A stretch of DNA of 64,000 nt from positions 1 through 64,000 of the forward strand of contig JAHCII010000009.1 of NCBI GenBank assembly GCA_026129305.1. The letters run 5' to 3'. Shown one piece after another: positions 6,067 to 46,542 of this stretch. The notes beneath the pieces are model-generated. The model did no database searches, was not told where the DNA came from, and worked only from the letters and a program-made list of their open reading frames with translations. Both the position numbers and the translations under genes were made by a program. Position 1 is the stretch's first letter. Each line of letters starts with the position of its first letter. The DNA comes from Anaerolineales bacterium (GTDB lineage: Bacteria; Chloroflexota; Anaerolineae; Anaerolineales; UBA11579).

Positions 6067-7584
6067 CTATTCCTGGTAATCGGCGGCGTACAGGCCCATC
6101 TGGGGGATGTCTGGCAACTCGAGCTGATACAGCCAGGCATCGAAGAAGCCGGCCAAATCCCGCCCGGCCAGCTCTTCGGCCGTGGCGATAAAGTCTGCCG
6201 TACTGGCATTGCCGCCGCCAAAGCGCGTCGTGTAAGTGCGCAGGGTCTCAAAGAAAGCCTGATCGCCAATCTCGACCCGCAGGGCGTGCAGCACCAGGCC
6301 GCCGCGTGCATAAACGCTGGCGTAATCAAACAGCCAGTTGGCCCCTGGGTCGCCAGTAAAACTCTGGTTGTAAGCGGCATAGGCGGCGAGGCTTTCGTAA
6401 GTGGAGCGGATGTTGCGCTCCATGGCCGGGCGGCCATCGGTGTGTTCATTCCACAGGTCGCTGGCGTAGGTGGCAAAGCCCTCGTTCAGCCAAATATCCT
6501 GCCACTGCTTCAGCCCTACCGCGTTGCCGAACCAGTGGTGGGCCAACTCATGCACCACCACATACTCATCGGTGAAGCTGTTGCCAAACACGGACAACGT
6601 GGCGGTCTCCAAAGCGAAGTTCAGCGGCATGTCATGCACCACCACACCGTAGGCTTCGTAAGGGTAGGGGCCGAACAGGTCTTCAAAATAATCCAGCATT
6701 TCCGCGGTGCGGGCGAAATCGTTGCGCACTTCTCGGCTCACGCCGGAGCCAAAATAGTTACGGATCAGCAAGCCGTCCGGAGTGCGGCTTTCTTCCAAAT
6801 CAAATTCGGCGATGCCCAGCGTGGTCAGATAGGGCGCGATCGGGTCGGCGATCGCCCAGTGATAGGTGCTGTGTGCGTTGCTCTGCTCCACGCCAGTCAG
6901 CAAGCCGTTGGCGGCCACATCGTACCTCGCATCGACCGTGATGCTGAAGCTGTAGGTGGCTTTGTCTGAGGGGTGTTCATTGACTGGGTACCAGGTGGAC
7001 GCCCCGGTCGGCTCCCCGGCCACCAGGATCCCGTGGCCGTAGTGGATCCAGCCTTGTGAATACTGCGGCAGGTCATCCCGGCTTTCGCCTGGGCGACCCT
7101 GGTAGAGGACCTCGATTAGCAGCTCATCACCCAGGTCGGCAGGCAGCGGCAGGAAAATGGTCATCTCGACGCCCAGCCGGTGAAACTCGGCGCGCTCGCC
7201 GTTGACGCGCACCTGATCCACTTGCAGCTCGTACAGCTCCAGGTTCAGGCTGCTCAGGCGCTGCGTGGCCGTCAGTTGGATCTCGGCCAAACCGCGGATG
7301 TAGTTGTCCAGTACATCCACATCCAGCACGAGATGGTAATGGCGCACATCGTAGCCGCCATTGCCCAGTTCAGCATAGTACACATCGCCCAGGCCTGCTG
7401 GCCCGGGGTGCGGGTTGGGTGGGGCAGTCAGTTCTGCTGTGGGGCCGGGCGGGCTGGTTTGCGTAGCGGTGGTTGTATCCACGTCGCGCACCGCCAGCCG
7501 ATCGGCCAGCATGCTGGTGACGGTGTTGCAGGCCAGGCTGGCTACCAATAGCAGGCTGAGGATCAGTTTGAGGCGTAAGGGCAT
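6067..7584 (-). CDS. M1-family zinc metallopeptidase, lipoprotein
   Basis: Aminopeptidase-N-like gluzincin anchored outside the membrane: lipobox VASLAC near residue 19. The active site HELAHHWFGN (near 339-348), followed by WLNEGFATYASDLW about 18 residues later, gives the HEXXH-x18-E zinc ligands and catalytic Glu. The exopeptidase GXMEN loop appears in a weak form (LNFALETATLS), so the amino-terminal specificity is less certain. The 505 residues cover the N-terminal beta domain and the catalytic domain but lack the long C-terminal helical domain of full PepN. A CATACT box lies 7 nt before the ATG, suggesting a leaderless mRNA. Confidence 0.88.
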   Translation of the reverse strand: MPLRLKLILSLLLVASLACNTVTSMLADRLAVRDVDTTTATQTSPPGPTAELTAPPNPHPGPAGLGDVYYAELGNGGYDVRHYHLVLDVDVLDNYIRGLAEIQLTATQRLSSLNLELYELQVDQVRVNGERAEFHRLGVEMTIFLPLPADLGDELLIEVLYQGRPGESRDDLPQYSQGWIHYGHGILVAGEPTGASTWYPVNEHPSDKATYSFSITVDARYDVAANGLLTGVEQSNAHSTYHWAIADPIAPYLTTLGIAEFDLEESRTPDGLLIRNYFGSGVSREVRNDFARTAEMLDYFEDLFGPYPYEAYGVVVHDMPLNFALETATLSVFGNSFTDEYVVVHELAHHWFGNAVGLKQWQDIWLNEGFATYASDLWNEHTDGRPAMERNIRSTYESLAAYAAYNQSFTGDPGANWLFDYASVYARGGLVLHALRVEIGDQAFFETLRTYTTRFGGGNASTADFIATAEELAGRDLAGFFDAWLYQLELPDIPQMGLYAADYQE

Positions 7585-7947: not shown

Positions 7948-7973
7948 GCACACCTCCAACAAGAAAAGTTTGT

Positions 7974-8014
7974 GCGTCGTCTTATCTTGACCGGGTACGG
8001 CGCGTCTCGTCCGG
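7974..8014 (-). promoter_or_regulatory. Guanidine-III riboswitch (ykkC-III class)
   Basis: Read on the minus strand, the 41 nt begin CCGGACGAG, continue GCGCCGTACCCGGTCA and end AAGACGACGC. This matches, nearly base for base and at the same length, the guanidine-III consensus as I remember it: CCGG paired with a second CCGG, and GCGCCGU paired with the 3' ACGNCGC to close a pseudoknot. The last pairing holds one C-A mismatch. A TATACT -10 box at 8027-8032 puts the transcript start just before the motif. The ribosome site of the exporter begins 16 nt after it. Confidence 0.88.
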
Positions 8015-8026
8015 AGGGGTGAATCC

Positions 8027-8032
8027 AGTATA
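8027..8032 (-). promoter_or_regulatory. -10 box of the exporter transcript
   Basis: TATACT on the minus strand, 12 nt upstream of the riboswitch. No convincing -35 element is visible. Confidence 0.5.
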
Positions 8033-8099: not shown

Positions 8100-11000
8100 C
8101 TAGAAGCGGCTGAGTACCTTGGCTTCCGTGGGGCTGGCCCCATGTAGGTCTTTGCCGGCCCGCCCTTGGTAGATCCAGAGCGCACTGCCTTCTTTGGCAT
8201 GTTTCTTGTCCACCCAGGCTTGCCCGGTAAGCGTGCCCTGCTGGTCCAGTGAACAGCTGGTGACTTCCCCGATCTGCTTCCCCTCGGCGTCGGTTACCGG
8301 GTCGCCCTGGTGGGCCATGCGCACCCCGGGCGGGAACTGGAAGCGCAGCACTTCGCGCTTGCGTCTGGCATCTGCCGCCAGGAAGGCGCCGCGCCCAATG
8401 AACCAGGGCTTGTTGGTCTGCACAAAGCTGCGGAACCCCGCATCGGCCGGGCTGAGCTTGTGCGGCCCGGCCAACTCTTGTCCGTAGAGGGGCAGACCAG
8501 CCTCAATGCGTAGCGAGTCGCGCGCCCCCAGGCCGATGGGCTGCAAGCCGTGCTTGGCCCCGGCCTTGAACAGGCTGTGCCACAGCTCCACGGCCTGGTC
8601 GGGATGCACGAAGAGCTCATAGGAGAACTGCTCGCCGGTGTAGCCGGTGCGTGAGACGATCAGGTCCAGCCCAGCCAACTGGGCGCGGGTGACGCCAAAG
8701 CGGCTCAGCTTGCGCAGCCGCGGCTTGTCGGCCGCGGCGGCCAGGGCCAGTAAGATCTTGCGGGCGTTGGGGCCTTGCAGGGCCAGGTCCACGCGCTGGT
8801 CAGCGCCGGCGCTGGCCGCGCGCAGGTTGCGCAGCGCCACGCCGCGGCCGAAGGCCAGCGCATCCGGCTGCCCCCGGTCGATGCACACCTCGCCCGCTCG
8901 CACCGCGTTGAGCCAGGCCCAGTTCTTGTCGTCGTTGCCGGCGTTCACCACCACCAGGTAGTCTTCCTGGTCCAAGCGATAAACCAGCAGGTCATCGATC
9001 ACGCCGCCGTCCGGGTCCAGGAAATGGGTATAGATGGACAACCCCACGGGCAGCCCGGCGATGTCGTTGGCGCACACCGAATCCAGAAAAGCGGCGGCCT
9101 GCGAGCCGCGCGCATCGTAGACGCCCATATGGCTGACGTCAAACAGGCCAGCGGTTTGGCGCACGGCCAGGTGTTCTTCGCGTACGGAGCTGTAGCGCAG
9201 CGGCATATCCCAACCGGCGAAGGGCACCAGCTTGGCGCCCAGGCTTTGATGCACTTCATACAGCCGGGTGCGCTTCAATGGCGGATCGACCGGCGCTTGC
9301 CAGGCAAAATCAGGCAGGGCCTTGGTTGGGGCGGCGGGCTGGCCCACCGCAAAGGGCTTGCGCGCCGGGGCTGGCTTGCCTTTGGGTGCTGCCACCTTGC
9401 GTTTGCTCTCGGTCACCAGCACAGGGCCGGGTGCGGTGCGGGTCAGGTCCTGATCGTCCAGGGTCACAAAACCGTCGGAGAGCGCCCGCAGCCACTCGGC
9501 GGCCAGGCTGAACTTCGCCCTGGGCACGGCCAGCAAGTAATCGTCGCCGCTCAACCGGCTGAGCCCAGCCTTGACTTCGCCCATGGGTGTGGGCAGGCTC
9601 ACCGCCAGGTTGCTCTTGGGGCTGGCGGCTTCAATATCATTAGCCACGGCCACGTTCAGCAGGTTTTGAGCCTGCTGGCCGCTGATTTCCAGGCCGACCC
9701 AGGCGGCTTTGCCGGCCGCTTTGTCGTCCGGATAATAGAAATGGGGATACCCATGCTGGCTGGGCTTGAAGTCGATGCCGGCCGCTTCGGCCAGCTTGCG
9801 CACGCGCAGCTTGGCGTCCCACAACGCGGCAAAGTCCACCTTGGCGCGCTGGCTCAGGCTGCTCTGTGTGCGGTCCCGGTAGGGGCGGCAGGCCAGCAGC
9901 AGGTCAGTGATGATGTTGCCCAGCTCACGGCTGTCTTTTTCACTGAAGCCGCGCTGGGTCACCCAGGAGGTACCTAAGCGCACGCCGGACGGATTGAAGG
10001 CGGAGCGGTCGCCGGGAATCGTGTTGCGGTTGACCACAATACCCGCCAGGTCCAGGATGCGCGCTGCCATGTCTCCCGATAGGGTCGTGCCATCCGGGCC
10101 TACCACGCTCTTGCAGTCCAAGTTGGTCAGATGACTGCGTGTGCCGCCAAAAGGGATGCGAAAACCGCGCTGCTGCAGTTGGTCGCTCAACGCCACACAG
10201 TTGGCGATTACCTGGGTTTGCAGCGCCTGAAATTCCGGGCTTTGGGCGATCTTGAAGGTCAGGGCCAGCCCCGCAAATACATTCACGTGCGGGCCGCCTT
10301 GCTCGCCGGGGAACACGGCCCGGTCGATCTTTTCGGCCAGCTTTTTGTCTGTCGTCAGGATGATGGCGCCGCGCGGGCCGTTGAGCGTCTTATGCGTAGT
10401 CGAAGTGACCACGTGCGCGTGACCCACAGGGGATGGATAGACCCCGGCGGCCACCAAGCCGGCCACATGGGCGATATCGGCGAGCAGGTAGGCGCCCACC
10501 GAGTCGGCGATGCGCCGCAAGGCGGCCCAGTCCGCCGGCCAGGGATAGGATGAGAAGCCGCCAATGATCATGCGTGGCTTGTGCTGCAGGGCCAGTTCAG
10601 CCAGCTCTTCATAATCGATCATTTCTGTGTCAGGGTTGACCGTGTAATGCACGATGTTGTAATACTTGCCGGAGCGATTGGCAGGCGAGCCGTGCGAGAG
10701 GTGGCCGCCGTGCAGCAGGTTCATGCCCATCACCGTATCCCCGGGTTGTACCAGGGCGTGGTACACGGCGTTGTTGGCTGGCGCGCCGGAGAGCGCCTGA
10801 ACATTCACATACAGCTTGTCCGCGCTGACCTCCTGTGTGGCAAAGGTTTCCGCTACCCGCCGGCGCGCCAACGCTTCCAGCAGGTTGGCGTATTCCACGC
10901 CCTTGTAATAGCGCGGGTCAGAATGACGGCGGTAGTGGTTGAGGCGCGCTGGATAATCCATGATCTCGGCCTCCTGCATCCAACGCGTGTCTTCGTCGGG

Positions 11001-11189
11001 ATAGCCTTCGGCGTAAATATTCTGGAAGGCCGAAGAAAGCGCTTCGCGCACGGCCAGGGGCGCGCTGCTTTCGCTGGGGATCAAGATCAGCCGACGGTAT
11101 TGGCGCTCAGCCTCAAGCTGTGTTAGTTCATCAATTTCAGGGGCCAGTTGGGCCAGGGAACCGCGGAAAAGGAAGTCTTTGGCAGGCAT
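8100..11189 (-). CDS. Fused serine hydroxymethyltransferase - glycine cleavage T protein
   Basis: Single 1029-residue protein joining two folate enzymes. Residues about 1-440 are PLP-dependent serine hydroxymethyltransferase, with the lysine motif TTHKTLNGPRG. A linker region of about 130 residues (near 440-570) reads weakly like a folate-binding barrel. Residues about 635-1029 are an aminomethyltransferase with FAGWDMPLRY, GLFDVSHMG and SRTGYTGEQFSYELF. It could turn serine to glycine and use glycine-derived aminomethyl groups, both yielding methylene-THF. The start is the ATG at 11189 because the SHMT fold begins there and a TACAAT box lies 6 nt upstream. The in-frame extension to 11360 overlaps the divergent gene. 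Confidence 0.9.
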   Translation of the reverse strand: MPAKDFLFRGSLAQLAPEIDELTQLEAERQYRRLILIPSESSAPLAVREALSSAFQNIYAEGYPDEDTRWMQEAEIMDYPARLNHYRRHSDPRYYKGVEYANLLEALARRRVAETFATQEVSADKLYVNVQALSGAPANNAVYHALVQPGDTVMGMNLLHGGHLSHGSPANRSGKYYNIVHYTVNPDTEMIDYEELAELALQHKPRMIIGGFSSYPWPADWAALRRIADSVGAYLLADIAHVAGLVAAGVYPSPVGHAHVVTSTTHKTLNGPRGAIILTTDKKLAEKIDRAVFPGEQGGPHVNVFAGLALTFKIAQSPEFQALQTQVIANCVALSDQLQQRGFRIPFGGTRSHLTNLDCKSVVGPDGTTLSGDMAARILDLAGIVVNRNTIPGDRSAFNPSGVRLGTSWVTQRGFSEKDSRELGNIITDLLLACRPYRDRTQSSLSQRAKVDFAALWDAKLRVRKLAEAAGIDFKPSQHGYPHFYYPDDKAAGKAAWVGLEISGQQAQNLLNVAVANDIEAASPKSNLAVSLPTPMGEVKAGLSRLSGDDYLLAVPRAKFSLAAEWLRALSDGFVTLDDQDLTRTAPGPVLVTESKRKVAAPKGKPAPARKPFAVGQPAAPTKALPDFAWQAPVDPPLKRTRLYEVHQSLGAKLVPFAGWDMPLRYSSVREEHLAVRQTAGLFDVSHMGVYDARGSQAAAFLDSVCANDIAGLPVGLSIYTHFLDPDGGVIDDLLVYRLDQEDYLVVVNAGNDDKNWAWLNAVRAGEVCIDRGQPDALAFGRGVALRNLRAASAGADQRVDLALQGPNARKILLALAAAADKPRLRKLSRFGVTRAQLAGLDLIVSRTGYTGEQFSYELFVHPDQAVELWHSLFKAGAKHGLQPIGLGARDSLRIEAGLPLYGQELAGPHKLSPADAGFRSFVQTNKPWFIGRGAFLAADARRKREVLRFQFPPGVRMAHQGDPVTDAEGKQIGEVTSCSLDQQGTLTGQAWVDKKHAKEGSALWIYQGRAGKDLHGASPTEAKVLSRF

Positions 11190-11195
11190 GCCGGA

Positions 11196-11201
11196 ATTGT
11201 A
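11196..11201 (-). promoter_or_regulatory. -10 box for leaderless SHMT-GcvT mRNA
   Basis: TACAAT on the minus strand, separated by 6 nt from the ATG, so transcription should begin at or next to the start codon. No ribosome-binding site is present. Confidence 0.6.
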
Positions 11202-11225
11202 ACGCTTCTCTGCGCCACAGCTTTG

Positions 11226-11231
11226 TATAAT
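11226..11231 (+). promoter_or_regulatory. -10 box of the DUF1801 gene
   Basis: TATAAT 28 nt before the ATG, facing away from the SHMT-GcvT -10 box 25 bp to the left. AAGGAGGT between box and ATG gives a normal leader. Confidence 0.55.
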
Positions 11232-11259
11232 GGAGGGGCTATTTGCAAGGAGGTGCAGT

Positions 11260-11721
11260 ATGGTCAGCAGCAAAGCGGCAACCGTGGAAGAGTATCTCAA
11301 AGAATTGCCTGAAGACCGCCGGGAGGCGCTCTCCGCGGTTCGCCAGGTTATTTTAGACAACCTGCCCGCTGGCTATGAGGAAGGTATGCTCTACGGCATG
11401 ATCGCCTACTACATCCCGCTGAAGGATTTCCCGGATACGTACAACGGCCAGCCGCTTGGCCACGTCGGGTTGGCTTCGCAAAAAAATTATATGGCTTTGT
11501 ATTTGAACAGCGTGTACAGTGATGCAGCGGCGGAGAAGTGGTTCAGGGAACGTTACCAAGCCAGCGGCAAGAAGCTGGATATGGGTAAATCCTGCGTACG
11601 TTTCAAGAAACTTGCTGATCTGCCATTGGAGCTTGTCGGCGAGACTGTGGCAATGACGCCGCCGGAAAAACTCCTGACCTTCTACAAGCAGCCACAGAAA
11701 ACGGCCCGGAGAAAGAAATAA
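11260..11721 (+). CDS. DUF1801-family protein
   Basis: 153-residue cytoplasmic protein of the DUF1801/YdhG-like type. Typical features are the N-terminal TVEEYLKELPEDRREAL helix, YEEGMLYGMIAYYIP near residue 43, and SQKNYMALYLNS near 77. The C-terminus is basic (KTARRKK). The biochemical role of the family is not established. The start is the ATG at 11260 with AAGGAGGT 6 nt upstream. It is divergent from the SHMT-GcvT gene and ends just before an unexplained structured intergenic element. Confidence 0.8.
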   Translation: MVSSKAATVEEYLKELPEDRREALSAVRQVILDNLPAGYEEGMLYGMIAYYIPLKDFPDTYNGQPLGHVGLASQKNYMALYLNSVYSDAAAEKWFRERYQASGKKLDMGKSCVRFKKLADLPLELVGETVAMTPPEKLLTFYKQPQKTARRKK

Positions 11722-42173: not shown

Positions 42174-42692
42174 GTGGACGACAAGGTTGCAATCCGCCCC
42201 GCCAGAGTGGGGGATGCGGGAGCAGTGGCGCGTGTTCATGTGGAGAGCTGGCGCAGTACCTATCGTGGCTTACTCCCCGAAAACTTCTTGAACAATTTAG
42301 ATATCCAGCGTCGCTTGGACTATTGGCGCAGCGTGTTCGAGAACGAATCGCCAGGTGAATTCGCCTTGGTGGCAGAGCACTCGACGCAGGGCGTGGTGGG
42401 CTTTGTCAGCGGCGGCCCAGCGCTCGAAGACCTTGGTCCGTACAGTGGACAAGTTTATGCAATCTATCTGTTGGCCTCGCAGCAAGGGCAGGGCATTGGC
42501 CGCGCGATGTTTGAAGGTGCACGCGGCTCGCTGGTTGAGCGAGACTACGCTGGCTTCATGCTGTGGGTATTGGAGGGCAACCCAACTTGCGGCTTCTACG
42601 AGCACATGGGAGGGCAGCTGATCGGGCGTAAAGAAGATCAGATCGGCGGTCAGCCTGTGACCGAGTTGGCCTATGGCTGGGCAAGTACCTAA
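42174..42692 (+). CDS. GNAT-family N-acetyltransferase
   Basis: 172 residues: RPARVGDAGAVARVHVESWRSTYRGLLP at the N-terminus and the acetyl-CoA loop LASQQGQGIGRAMFEGA near residue 100. GFYEHMGGQLIGRK lies near 141. A GTG start is used. Its 3' end overlaps the following acetyltransferase gene by 20 nt. The acceptor is unknown. Confidence 0.85.
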   Translation: MDDKVAIRPARVGDAGAVARVHVESWRSTYRGLLPENFLNNLDIQRRLDYWRSVFENESPGEFALVAEHSTQGVVGFVSGGPALEDLGPYSGQVYAIYLLASQQGQGIGRAMFEGARGSLVERDYAGFMLWVLEGNPTCGFYEHMGGQLIGRKEDQIGGQPVTELAYGWAST

Positions 42693-43272
42693 GTCCTTTC
42701 ACGTGAGATTGGCCAGCGTGGCGGATGCCGAGGCCATTCTGGCGATTTATGCGCCACTGGTGAGCCACTCTGCAGTCTCATTCGAAACTGAGCCGCCCTC
42801 TGTAACGGAAATGGCCGGGCGCGTTGAGCACACGCTGCCAGAATTTCCCTGGTTGGTGGCCGAAGGCGGAGGCGTTGTGCTGGGCTATGCCTATGCCAGC
42901 CGCTATCGTCCGCGGGCAGCGTATCAGTGGGCGGTGGAATGCTCAGTGTATGTGCACCCTGATGCGCGCCGCCAGGGCATTGCCAGCGCGCTGTACAAAG
43001 TGCTGTTTGCCATTCTGAGGCTACAAGGTTTTTACAAGGTCTATGCGGCGGTCACATTGCCCAACCTAGGCAGCGTGGCTGTGCACGAAGCCTTCGGCTT
43101 CCGCCAATTCGCCACCTATCGGGCCGTGGGCTATAAGCTGGGCGCCTGGCAGGATGTGGGCTGGTGGGAGATGGATCTGAGGGAACTGGCCGGAGAACCG
43201 GTTGCGCCAAAACCGTTCAACCAGTTGGCTGACAGCAGCGGGTTGGCGATAATTCTGTCAGCGACTAGCTAA
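42673..43272 (+). CDS. GNAT-family N-acetyltransferase, phosphinothricin-acetyltransferase type
   Basis: 199 residues. VRLASVADAEAILAIYAPLVSHSAVSFETEPPS in its N-terminal part, split here for length as VRLASVADAEAILAIY then SAVSFETEPPS, resembles the PAT/MnaT group. The acetyl-CoA loop is PDARRQGIASALYKVL near 95 and HEAFGFRQFATYRAVGYK near 137. This group acetylates phosphinothricin or methionine derivatives. The true substrate is unknown. It overlaps the upstream GNAT gene by 20 nt. Confidence 0.86.
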   Translation: MAGQVPKSFHVRLASVADAEAILAIYAPLVSHSAVSFETEPPSVTEMAGRVEHTLPEFPWLVAEGGGVVLGYAYASRYRPRAAYQWAVECSVYVHPDARRQGIASALYKVLFAILRLQGFYKVYAAVTLPNLGSVAVHEAFGFRQFATYRAVGYKLGAWQDVGWWEMDLRELAGEPVAPKPFNQLADSSGLAIILSATS

Positions 43273-43708
43273 TGCGTTGGATCTTCTTGAACAGTCTGCG
43301 GTCGAAGCCAGCCAGGTTACCAGGGCCCAGCTCTCCGGCGGCTGTTACCGCGGCCACCACATCGGCCCGCAGCTGATCCACATCCACACCGCGGCAAACC
43401 GCTGGCCAGGGGGCCAGCCATTTCTTGCAGCGTTCAAACATTTTGGCCATGCCAATGAAATTGTTGCGTTCTATTTGGAGGTAGACGACGCCGACCTGCA
43501 ATATGCCTTGGTAAAGGTGGCGAACGGGGCCGGGCTCTGCCCGCCAGGCGGCTTCCAGCGCTTCGTGAGCCTCCCAGTATTGGCCAGCGTCAAACAAAGC
43601 AATACCCTCTACCGCGGCAGGGTGCAAGGCACCCTGGCAGGCAGAGGGTATTTGCTGCGGTGTGACGAAGATTTCGTCAGGATTGCGAACCGGTGTGGTC
43701 TTACTCAA
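43265..43708 (-). CDS. DUF309-family protein
   Basis: About 147 residues with the DUF309 core GIALFDAGQYWEAHEALEAAW near residue 35 and HLYQGILQVGVVYLQIERNN near 65. It forms a helical bundle of unknown role. I chose the TTG at 43708, which overlaps the upstream gene's stop as TTGAGTAA; ATG codons at 43741 and 43750 would cause a 40-50 nt overlap. It is the last gene of the five-gene DUF2089 operon. Confidence 0.75.
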   Translation of the reverse strand: MSKTTPVRNPDEIFVTPQQIPSACQGALHPAAVEGIALFDAGQYWEAHEALEAAWRAEPGPVRHLYQGILQVGVVYLQIERNNFIGMAKMFERCKKWLAPWPAVCRGVDVDQLRADVVAAVTAAGELGPGNLAGFDRRLFKKIQRIS

Positions 43709-44069
43709 TGTAGATTTCCACGTGGTCGCCGTCTTCCTCATCGCGTACATCGATCACTTTTCCGGTCATGCCGCTGCGAATGGCTTCCATCAACTCTTCT
43801 TCTTGCACGCCCGGAACATATTTGGAGGCGATGCCCAGTCCGGCGCTCACCAGGCTCAGTGGTAAATTGACTGTCACCTTGTTTCGTCCGCTAAACAAAT
43901 CCGTCACCCGTACGCGCAGATAGCGGCCGTCGTCTGCTGTCACGCGACCGGGAGACGGGCGGCCAGAACCGCGCGTCAATGCTTCCAGAAGCTTGGCGCC
44001 GTCGGCCGGGCTGATCTTGCCGTCTTGGATCATTTGTAAAATCTTTAGTCGTTCTTCACTGGTTGCCAT
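43701..44069 (-). CDS. SHOCT-like domain protein
   Basis: 122 residues. The N-terminal SHOCT-like helical hairpin (EERLKILQMIQDGKISPAD, residues 5-23, then GAKLLEAL) is followed by a linker and a beta/alpha region ending in a strongly acidic tail (VRDEEDGDHVEIYIE). GGGAG precedes the ATG. The same hairpin occurs in the three genes upstream. Function is unknown; similar modules sit at the N-terminus of LiaX/YvlB-type envelope-stress proteins. Confidence 0.75.
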   Translation of the reverse strand: MATSEERLKILQMIQDGKISPADGAKLLEALTRGSGRPSPGRVTADDGRYLRVRVTDLFSGRNKVTVNLPLSLVSAGLGIASKYVPGVQEEELMEAIRSGMTGKVIDVRDEEDGDHVEIYIE

Positions 44070-44093
44070 GACTATCTCCCAATTAGACCGCGA

Positions 44094-44798
44094 TTAGCTG
44101 ATCTGGATGTCGACTGTTTCATCATCATCGTCGCTGTGGGCCTGGATGATGATCGGTTGGCCGTTCTCTTTGACCTGTTCAAAGGCACTCAGCAGGCCTT
44201 CAATATCCTCTAAATCCACTCCAGAGATATTCATGCGACCGCCAAAAAATCTCAGCACCTGGCTGGTCAGCTTAACCGGCAGAGGCAGGTCCAAGTTGAA
44301 GTTGCCCTCAGCATGCCCGACCGCCTTGCGCGAGCGAATACGGACACTGGCCCAGGGGCTTTGCCGGCTGGCCCAACCCAGCACGATCAGCAAAACGCCA
44401 AGCAGCATCGGTGCCCAGGCGCAGATAAAGGCCAGGCCCAGCGAGCCGTCCCGCAGATCGCTGCGCATCCAGCTGGCGGCCAGCACGGCCAGCAGACTGC
44501 CCGCCGCGATCGCCACCGCCCACCACCGGGACCGGCGAACTTTAGGGTCGATGACTTCGACCCGGCTGGTGTGACTTTCTTCTTTGGCGTCCTGGCTTGC
44601 GCCCGCTGCCCCCAATTGTTGTGCAGCCTCTTCAGGGTTAATTTCGCCGCGCTCCAGTTGCTCCAACACATCCATTGGGGAAGCTGCAGCCTTGCGGCTG
44701 GTTTGCGCGCCGGTCAACAATTCCGCGGCCTGTTCAATGCTTAGCTCGCCGCGCTCCAGGCGGTTGAGGATCTCGAGGCGTTCTGACGGGCTAGGCAT
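44094..44798 (-). CDS. Membrane protein with two tandem SHOCT-like hairpins
   Basis: 234 residues. Two copies of the hairpin lie near residues 5-30 (ERLEILNRLERGELSIEQ) and 42-66 (MDVLEQLERGEINPEE). Two transmembrane helices near 92-110 and 120-145 follow, then a C-terminal domain with NLDLPLPVKLTSQVLRFFGG and an acidic DDDDE tail resembling the 43701-44069 protein. GGAG lies 7 nt before the ATG at 44798. It overlaps the DUF4097 gene end. Function is unknown. Confidence 0.75.
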   Translation of the reverse strand: MPSPSERLEILNRLERGELSIEQAAELLTGAQTSRKAAASPMDVLEQLERGEINPEEAAQQLGAAGASQDAKEESHTSRVEVIDPKVRRSRWWAVAIAAGSLLAVLAASWMRSDLRDGSLGLAFICAWAPMLLGVLLIVLGWASRQSPWASVRIRSRKAVGHAEGNFNLDLPLPVKLTSQVLRFFGGRMNISGVDLEDIEGLLSAFEQVKENGQPIIIQAHSDDDDETVDIQIS

Positions 44799-46017
44799 CT
44801 TCATTCTCCACAGAGTTCGGCGGAGTGGGCGCTTCCGGAAGCATAGGCGGCTCGGGAGCCACTGGTGGTTCAGGAGGCTGCACGATCGGGCGACCTTCCA
44901 GAGCGTGCAGCAGCATCTCTGCCTCGGCGATGGAGATCTTCTTTTCTTGCAGCATGTTCAGCACCATGGCACGCTCTTTGGTATCCACGGGTTCAACGGG
45001 CCTGGCGGGCGGGGTGGGCGGCGACACAGTGCGGCCACGCCGACGGCTGGCGAGCTTCATTTCCAATTTGCGTTGGGTGCGGGCCACGCGCTCCTGAGCG
45101 CGTGCCGCAGCCCGTGAGCCGGAATGGCCCAGTCGCTCGCTGAGCGAGCTGAGCCGCTGGTTCAGCGCTTCCATCTGGGATTCCAATTGCTGGGTCACCT
45201 GGCCAGTGATCTCATCCGCCAGATTGTCCAGGTCGTCCACTGCGTCCAGGTCCACCAACAGCTCCTCATCCCGCTGGCGGCTGCGGATGTCTATGTGTCC
45301 GCCGGCTTTCAGCACGATCTGGCTGCCGCCCTCTCCCAGGACGAATTCATGCGTGCGGGTCTGGATGCGGGTCCTCTCATCTGGGCTGGTGACCAGGATG
45401 CTTTTGGCCTTGCTCTCCAAATGAATATTGGCGTCCATCGAATCGCGCAGGTCACAATGCAGGTTGCCGGCGGCTTCTACATGAACAGTATCCTCTAGCG
45501 TGCTCAGGCGCAGGTCAGCGTTACCGCTGGTCTTAACCTGGATGTTGCCTTCCACATCGCGCAGGCCCAGGCTGCCGCTGATGGTCTGCGCCTCCAGGTT
45601 GCCCTCAACATTGCGGATGGCGGCGCTGCCGCTGATATTGCGCACGCTCAGGTTCCCATCTACATTGCGGGCAGTGAAACTGCCAGCGATGTGCTCGGCG
45701 ACCGTATCACCCACCATGCGCAGGGTCAGCGAGCCGCCAATCTGATGCACCTTTAGGTCGCCTTCTACGTTGCTGATGTAGGCATCCCGGCCGACCTGAG
45801 CGATGCTCAGCGAGCTATCTTCCGGTATGCGCAGAACGCAGTCGCTGTCACAGGAGAGCGTCAGCCTGTCGTTTTGGAAGCTGTATTGCAGTGCATCTTC
45901 GCTTTGACCTTCGATGCGGATATTGCTGTCGCCGTGGCCTTTGATGTGCAAACTGCCTGCAATCGAACCGATTTGTATTTCAGGGTTGCTGCTCGAAGCC
46001 AGTTGTATGCGTGCCAT
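44791..46017 (-). CDS. DUF4097-type beta-repeat protein with C-terminal SHOCT-like hairpin
   Basis: 408 residues without signal peptide. Residues about 1-240 are a regular beta solenoid of roughly 20-residue rungs (for example GNLSVRNISGSAAIRNVEGN and NLEAQTISGSLGLRDVEGN), as in DUF4097/LiaX-like proteins. A coiled-coil and basic Arg-rich region lies near 265-325, then Pro-rich linkers around a helical hairpin KERAMVLNMLQEKKISIAE near 350. The start at 46017 is set by the fold and by the DUF2089 stop one base earlier. It may bind envelope components or assemble with the SHOCT proteins. That role is inference. Confidence 0.78.
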   Translation of the reverse strand: MARIQLASSSNPEIQIGSIAGSLHIKGHGDSNIRIEGQSEDALQYSFQNDRLTLSCDSDCVLRIPEDSSLSIAQVGRDAYISNVEGDLKVHQIGGSLTLRMVGDTVAEHIAGSFTARNVDGNLSVRNISGSAAIRNVEGNLEAQTISGSLGLRDVEGNIQVKTSGNADLRLSTLEDTVHVEAAGNLHCDLRDSMDANIHLESKAKSILVTSPDERTRIQTRTHEFVLGEGGSQIVLKAGGHIDIRSRQRDEELLVDLDAVDDLDNLADEITGQVTQQLESQMEALNQRLSSLSERLGHSGSRAAARAQERVARTQRKLEMKLASRRRGRTVSPPTPPARPVEPVDTKERAMVLNMLQEKKISIAEAEMLLHALEGRPIVQPPEPPVAPEPPMLPEAPTPPNSVENEDA

Positions 46018-46018
46018 T

Positions 46019-46405
46019 TTAGCTGCCTTCCTTTTCTTCAATGAGGCGCAAGGCCTCTTCGTAGCTGATCGTGCCGTGGTCCAGGTCGTCCAAGATGCGG
46101 CGGCGCTCTTCGTCGCCCAACCCGGCGAAGTCTTCTTCGCTGGGCTCATAGCCCAGACTGCGAATGATCTCCATCAGGCGGTTGCGGATGGTGGGGTAGG
46201 AAAGCCCCAGGTCGGCCTCCATGCGGGTGATCTTGCCTTGGTTGCGGACAAATAATTCCACGAAGGCCAATTGCTCTTCGCTCAGCTGGCTGAACGGACT
46301 GCCTTGAAAGCGACCTTCGATGCGCGTATCGCATTCGCGACAAGCCAAGCTGGTGACTAGCAGGTCGCCCTGGCAAACTGGACAAGTGTGGGGAGTGGGG
46401 TGCAT
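46019..46405 (-). CDS. DUF2089-family zinc-ribbon/HTH regulator
   Basis: 128 residues. A zinc ribbon made of CPVCQG and CRECDTRIEGRF at the N-terminus is followed by a sigma-like helix-turn-helix (FVRNQGKITRMEADLGLSYP, then TIRNRLMEII). The C-terminal hairpin ERRRILDDLDHGTISYEEAL is the same module seen in the three genes downstream. TAGGAG precedes the ATG. A strong promoter and a palindrome lie in its leader, so it likely autoregulates the operon. Confidence 0.88.
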   Translation of the reverse strand: MHPTPHTCPVCQGDLLVTSLACRECDTRIEGRFQGSPFSQLSEEQLAFVELFVRNQGKITRMEADLGLSYPTIRNRLMEIIRSLGYEPSEEDFAGLGDEERRRILDDLDHGTISYEEALRLIEEKEGS

Positions 46406-46421: not shown

Positions 46422-46437
46422 CAAAATCAGGATTTTG
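46422..46437. promoter_or_regulatory. Inverted repeat in the DUF2089 leader
   Basis: CAAAATC, 2 bp, GATTTTG, located between the promoter and the ribosome site. It is a candidate binding site for the DUF2089 regulator. Confidence 0.5.
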
Positions 46438-46463: not shown

Positions 46464-46491
46464 ATTGTATAGATGTTTTAGCAAATGTCAA
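46464..46491 (-). promoter_or_regulatory. Sigma-70 promoter of the DUF2089 operon
   Basis: TTGACA (46486-46491) and TACAAT (46464-46469) with a 16-bp spacer on the minus strand, preceded by a very AT-rich, UP-element-like tract (46492-46515). It is the best-formed promoter in the window. Confidence 0.8.
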
Positions 46492-46542
46492 GAAAATATA
46501 TTAAATATTTTGATATTCCTATTCATTTTTCTCAACGCATGC

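Follow-up and report, generated by a model that had tools for sequence, protein, structure and literature searches.

On the minus strand of the window analysed here, by which is meant the whole 64,000-nucleotide stretch of contig JAHCII010000009.1 (positions 1 to 64,000; assembly GCA_026129305.1) from an Anaerolineales bacterium of the phylum Chloroflexota, five open reading frames (ORFs) run from 46405 to 43265 and encode a DUF2089 regulator (A), a beta-solenoid protein (B), a protein with two transmembrane (TM) helices (C), a 122-residue protein (D) and a DUF309 protein (E). Since B and C overlap and the remaining intergenic distances are short, the five genes are likely to form an operon. 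Four of the five products share a helical hairpin, two of these share a further domain, and the promoter of A in relatives carries a repeated DNA pattern, all of which may belong to a single membrane-stress or efflux module under the control of A.

A shared hairpin and a second shared domain

Gene A (46019-46405; 128 aa) is made up of a zinc ribbon (residues 8-39), a helix-turn-helix (HTH) domain (residues 41-87) and a SHOCT-like hairpin (residues 99-126), with the Pfam models PF22747, PF09862 and PF22746 each exceeding their cut-offs. Gene B (44791-46017; 408 aa), whose ATG at 46017 is preceded by AGGAAGG, encodes a Toastrack/LiaG-like beta-solenoid that ends in a SHOCT-like module. The preliminary description of this DNA had presented B as a DUF4097 protein, a label that fits in part; B itself does not reach Pfam PF13349 (DUF4097), but it matches the NCBIfam LiaG model at E 1.9e-8 (33.9 bits, far under the model cut-off of 285) and six of 20 B relatives match PF13349, the best at 1e-10. 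Taken alone, the B sequence would fit the Toastrack definition weakly. Gene C (44094-44804; 236 aa), which overlaps the end of B, consists of two SHOCT-like modules, a two-TM hairpin and a C-terminal domain without a name, and gene D (43701-44069; 122 aa), the most conserved partner of A, joins one SHOCT-like module to such a domain. Gene E (43265-43750) appears to be an accessory gene that starts at ATG 43750 or, overlapping the stop of D, at TTG 43708; DUF309 (PF03745, E 3e-19) is its sole domain, and the Pfam search found no SHOCT-like module in it.

The repeated hairpin corresponds to Pfam PF22746, 'SHOCT-like_DUF2089-C', and occurs once each in A (46028-46111 in the Pfam search, 46025-46111 in a genome scan, E 5e-7), B (44890-44976, residues 348-376, E 5e-6) and D (43974-44057, residues 5-32, E 5e-11), and twice in C (44709-44783 and 44607-44675, with E 5e-11 for the whole C protein). 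Proteins A, C and D exceed the curated cut-off of 27 bits, and the B module scores 26.3 bits in the Pfam search, just short of that value, and 29.9 bits in a scan of the genome. Two copies in C are not the rule, since many relatives have a single one. Across the organism's own assembly, the top six matches to PF22746 are the five copies of A-D and one in a second DUF2089 gene. A profile built solely from the tails of A recovers the copies in C, D and B, a profile from D recovers those in A, B and C, and neither matches any of 7306 other ORFs taken from the fetched neighbourhoods. Additionally, when the profiles of the four modules are aligned pair by pair, the E values range from 2.5e-11 to 7e-19. 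Judged by these profiles, the hairpins of A-D are homologous and not alike by chance, which bears out the preliminary description in its claims that the hairpin appears five times in four proteins and that regulator, solenoid and membrane protein are linked by a single repeated module, as well as in the profile alignment that it had named beforehand as a check.

Homology of the hairpins might reflect a shared location as opposed to protein contact, which the preliminary description had put forward as possible like-with-like assembly. Ravi et al. have predicted that SHOCT-like domains are membrane-anchoring tags (PMC11237479), and the founding paper on SHOCT reported an experiment of its own that did not support self-oligomerization of a classical SHOCT domain (PMC3581485). 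Yet C keeps the hairpin despite having membrane helices of its own, and A would become a membrane-located DNA-binding protein, an arrangement that is possible but odd. That the hairpins act purely as anchoring tags is, on this balance, somewhat unlikely; in view of the negative oligomerization result, the hairpins may serve contact between different partners or, as envisaged by Ravi et al., location at the membrane.

Two further sightings concern the same families. The second DUF2089 regulator of this genome (L153 1192-1584, G000:C34) has a SHOCT-like tail and follows an inositol monophosphatase-like gene, with no B, C or D neighbours seen beside it. In two other loci (L188 2911-4389 and L189 1212-2858), genes beside DUF2089 genes encode an N-terminal SHOCT-like hairpin followed by many repeats of about 30 residues of the LRIHNVxPEYV type, and a tiny SHOCT-only protein also lies beside DUF2089 genes there.

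Beyond the hairpin, C and D share a second, unnamed domain, as their profiles indicate. With the hairpins removed, the C and D profiles align over 77 columns (hhalign, 99% probability, E 3e-18), and in many loci the C profile finds D and the D profile finds C. AlphaFold2 predicts the same strand-strand-helix-helix-strand-strand order, with moderate to good confidence, for residues 50-121 of D and 151-235 of C; the corresponding C-terminal domains lie at 43704-43928 and 44100-44360, respectively. Thus, D can be described as a hairpin plus this domain, and C as one or two hairpins, two TM helices and the same domain. The predicted helices of C (residues 87-118 and 124-148; 44361-44546) have pLDDT >90 for most of their length, and C is membrane-anchored and D soluble. 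No Pfam or NCBIfam model covers the C/D domain, and it has neither a sequence match nor a fold match in the PDB; when the folds of D and C were compared with PDB structures, nothing was better than E 0.1, and the top hits, LuxR-type ligand-binding domains, were rejected as not credible. When the sequences of A, B and D were searched against PDB chains, there were likewise no matches. In two loci of Bacillota, the gene following D resembles a short stand-alone C/D domain, a weak likeness that is based on E 5e-4 in one locus and on inspection by eye in the other.

The conserved core and its linked exporters

Gene D is encoded in 113 of 151 genomes of the window's order and in 137 of 301 genomes in a sample of the phylum. 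After dereplication there were 131 loci, of which 118 allowed the proximity of A and D to be assessed, and in 103 of these 118 A is found upstream of D at a distance of no more than 5 kb. The commonest gene order, A-B-C-D, recurs in many families, with A-D alone and A-D-B as alternatives, and B and C are frequent in the loci. A and D are also neighbours on plasmids of Paraclostridium bifermentans and Niallia taxi (Bacillota). In the plasmid collection, D occurs in just four records. DUF309 genes adjoin the set in the window's own family alone, one distant instance aside. Based on this distribution, A-D is the unit that persists, followed by B and C, and E is an add-on. The A-D pair can therefore be regarded, from gene content and order, as the conserved core and DUF309 as family-specific. 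In line with the preliminary description, A, B, C and D co-occur in relatives, whereas DUF309, which had been counted as a member of the shared set, proves to be a family-level addition that lies outside the conserved unit and lacks the hairpin. Among the D genes for which no DUF2089 gene was found within 5 kb upstream are those of loci L057, L058, L060, L061, L120, L129 and L151. In 18 relatives, a CorA-like gene lies divergently upstream of A (e.g., L078 460-1446), its identity having been read from the sequence by eye.

Transporters are a recurrent feature of these neighbourhoods. An exporter of the major facilitator superfamily (MFS) or the ATP-binding cassette (ABC) type lies within or abuts the cluster in 55 of the 131 loci. 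In 25 of 114 loci, an MFS gene starts no more than 300 nt after D, as compared to four MFS genes of these families in 639 kb of outer flank. The best NCBIfam matches of the MFS proteins are H+ antiporter/Mef(A/B/C) and multidrug/Tet models and that of the ABC ATPase is DrrA, all under the curated cut-offs. Moreover, in three genomes of Chloroflexota, an MFS transporter carries the hairpin and the C/D domain as a C-terminal fusion (L068 5840-7459; L069 6083-7711; L190 3035-4651), and it belongs to the same family as the transporters of the clusters; within the stretches fetched, these fusion genes are separate from DUF2089 genes. The Mef-like homologues encoded in the window's own genome (best E 3e-90, C12) were considered as linked exporters and set aside, for they are located elsewhere and are unconnected to A-E.

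The frequency of exporters and the MFS-D fusions could mean that the cluster is primarily a regulated drug-efflux operon, to which Toastrack, C and D are accessories. However, more than half of the loci have no adjacent exporter, those of the window's family included, and the A-D pair stands alone in many genomes, making this reading of the cluster rather improbable.

The promoter of gene A and a candidate operator

A promoter of the form TTGACA-16-TACAAT, matching the consensus at 11 of 12 positions, lies at 46464-46491 on the minus strand, ahead of A, and comparable promoters occupy the same place in many relatives. At least nine of 12 positions match in 70 of 117 upstream regions, several relatives match at 12 of 12, and the spacer is 16 bp, which is slightly short, in 38 of 58 promoters. 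The strong promoter given in the preliminary description is thus present in the window, but it has no counterpart in the congeners G008, G086 and CP075367 (L072). In the 5' leader, an inverted repeat, CAAAATC-CT-GATTTTG (46422-46437, minus strand), is present in the window and in the sister genome G094.

When the A promoters of 54 non-redundant relatives were aligned at the -35 element, a dyad of the form TTnA-N5-TnAA emerged, its 13-bp sites recurring with a period of 21 bp, or two helical turns: at -21, at 0, where the site covers the -35, and, with a weaker signal, at -42. The dyad at -21 has at least five of six positions in 26 of the 54 promoters and all six in 13, and its mean score of 3.98 of 6 compares with a maximum of 2.85 for the best offset in 1000 shuffles. 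A score of at least 5 was reached by 28 of 58 A promoters vs four of the 38 controls, which were AT-rich sites resembling promoters (Fisher p 1.3e-4). Part of the match at 0 follows from the TTGAC of the -35; what supports that unit independently is the spacer, where A at +12 is found in 44 of 54.

The pattern was also sought in 18 whole genomes. The exact two-unit form, TTNAWWWWWTNAA-N8-TTGACW, gave seven matches, as compared with none for a backwards control; four of the seven precede A, and one lies about 50 nt before a Toastrack (B) gene of G064 that is unlinked to A-D. The other two, G027:C5 and G113:C2, have no plausible target and were taken as chance. With one mismatch allowed there were 47 matches vs 11 in the control, so that most single-mismatch matches are not to be read as targets. 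The unlinked B-C pair of G053 carries the pattern with one mismatch, and that of G013 has a weaker version. In the window, a degenerate copy at 46478-46514 (minus strand) is composed of ATCAAAATATTTAA (46514-46501) and TTGACATTTGCTAA (46491-46478), the latter overlapping the -35. A search of the window's genome for an A regulon by means of the operator pattern gave barely more matches than the backwards control, and no meaningful target was seen among them. In G111, an operator-like site faces the divergent CorA-like gene.

The AT-rich conserved stretch might instead be an UP element for the alpha subunit of RNA polymerase, with regulation occurring elsewhere. Its -21 unit does lie within the UP-element zone, and a comparable AT-rich UP region has been proposed upstream of liaX in E. 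faecium (PMC10269926). Yet an UP element leaves aside the dyad symmetry at fixed positions, the 21-bp repetition and the conserved positions inside the spacer, as well as the poor showing of the AT-matched control sites and the occurrence of the pattern before unlinked B genes; we consider it quite improbable. If the sites are bound by A, then A could be an activator that recruits RNA polymerase upon stress from phased sites upstream of the -35, in the manner of Lia/Vra-type response regulators. Two of the three sites do lie upstream of the -35 on a single face of the DNA, the short spacer would be compatible with activation, and Lia-type systems activate. However, the third site overlaps the -35 itself, and the promoters that match the consensus at 12 of 12 positions need no activator. 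Hence, an activating role for A is unlikely, and the repressor sign is preferred.

A few other features of the window may be recorded here. Two adjacent genes for GCN5-related N-acetyltransferases (GNAT), at 42174-43272 on the plus strand, are convergent with the operon, the second overlapping the end of the DUF309 gene. Tandem GNAT genes occur in 30 of the loci in relatives, but the window pair falls below the score threshold of that profile and was dismissed as a counterpart, being ordinary GNATs. Farther away, a guanidine-III riboswitch aptamer (7971-8031, minus strand, 54.8 bits) sits between a peptidase M1-like ORF (6067-7584) and an apparent 1086-aa fusion (8100-11360, minus strand), a single frame that matches serine hydroxymethyltransferase and then the glycine cleavage T protein (SHMT-GcvT); neither neighbour is an obvious guanidine gene.

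A possible membrane-stress circuit

Taken together, these data lead us to propose, with a confidence that stops just short of even, that A-E is a DUF2089-controlled membrane-stress/efflux module in which A is an autorepressor that is gated at the membrane by SHOCT-tagged partners. In such a circuit, A would bind the dyads as cooperating dimers and repress its own promoter and, in trans, that of B-C; repression is favoured because one site overlaps the -35 and the promoters need no activator. B, C and D would form an assembly beneath the membrane that senses disturbance of the envelope, and by docking there through its hairpin, A would be held in, or released from, repression. Derepression would raise the level of the scaffold and, in many relatives, of drug-type exporters (MFS, ABC), which D may contact on the cytoplasmic side, and the products would strengthen the membrane or promote efflux. 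In the lineage of the window, the operon contains no exporter, and DUF309 has joined it. An envelope role of the Toastrack/Lia type would be the natural reading of the family by analogy, and the protein contacts and the signal are what we infer from the sequences.

A number of observations weigh against this model. Gene D lacks A within 5 kb in 15 of 118 loci, in some cases because intervening genes displace A further, and the family of the window has no linked exporter. In the window, the operator is degenerate, with three mismatches vs the consensus, and does not rise above the control in the same genome, and close congeners lack this form of promoter and operator. The upstream AT-rich sites coincide in part with the position of an UP element, and in the sole published test, a classical SHOCT domain did not self-oligomerize (PMC3581485). 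Finally, the loci are related by descent, so that the counts show association and are not independent events.

Several known systems resemble parts of this one. Ravi et al. (2024) described a four-gene Toastrack context with DUF2089, dissected DUF2089 into zinc ribbon, HTH and SHOCT-like parts and proposed a Lia-like role in membrane signalling (PMC11237479); the DUF2089 gene there is adjacent to the Toastrack gene, just as A directly precedes B in many families. The partners named in their main text are LiaI-LiaF-TM, B-box or PspC, along with a linked sigma factor, none of which was present in Pfam matches of the five proteins or recognized among the recurrent neighbours; in the present set, their place is taken by C (a SHOCT-2TM-domain protein), D, exporters and DUF309, together with the operator array. 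LiaX/YvlB of the LiaFSR-LiaXYZ systems (Enterococcus/Bacillus) also combines SHOCT-like hairpins and a Toastrack in one protein, according to the same text (PMC11237479), and A and B match the dapto_LiaX model weakly, via hairpin and solenoid (E 0.025 and 0.11; 11-13 bits vs a cut-off of 350). However, the hairpins of YvlB are N-terminal whereas that of B is C-terminal, and LiaX/YvlB signalling passes through a two-component system, no histidine kinase or response regulator gene being found within 46405-43265. In the leaderless bacteriocin clusters of bawcin, enterocin DD14 and thucin A, a DUF2089 protein similarly occurs together with an exporter and small membrane proteins, but the DUF2089 proteins there are of 89-98 aa, and the passages on these clusters name no Toastrack or D. 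HAAS-PadR pairs and PspA/PspC systems (PMC11237479) are work-alikes in which a transcription factor is tied to a membrane-side helical domain; Pfam found no PspA, PspC or PadR among the five proteins of the operon, no search for PspA having been made in the remainder of the genome.

The preliminary description had suggested an undescribed envelope-stress system. Since the hairpin module and the DUF2089-Toastrack context are already in PMC11237479, the system as such is not undescribed. The preliminary description made no mention of the second domain common to C and D, the A-D core, the exporters or the operator array. The literature seen was found to describe neither the C/D domain, nor the role of D as A's main partner, nor the MFS fusions, nor the operator, with the reservation that the supplementary gene tables of Ravi et al. 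may include C or D, and no study was found that gives DUF2089 a DNA site or target.

More broadly, it is possible, and we suggest it tentatively, that DUF2089 proteins provide the DNA-binding arm of a membrane-stress circuit that is widespread and works without a kinase. The regulator, D as a soluble adaptor, C as a membrane adaptor, the Toastrack protein and, in some cases, the exporter would be plugged together via an exchangeable 28-residue hairpin and a hitherto undescribed beta-beta-alpha-alpha-beta-beta domain, and the phased TTnA-N5-TnAA array would hold the regulon together where its genes are scattered around the genome. The DUF2089 proteins form a common family of orphan regulators, and a predicted operator, a most-conserved partner in D and a link to drug-type exporters make this domain of unknown function bench-testable. 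The shared hairpin likewise makes the binding partners of SHOCT-like domains directly testable, and the repeated DNA signature at the promoter could allow the first direct study of a DUF2089 regulator.

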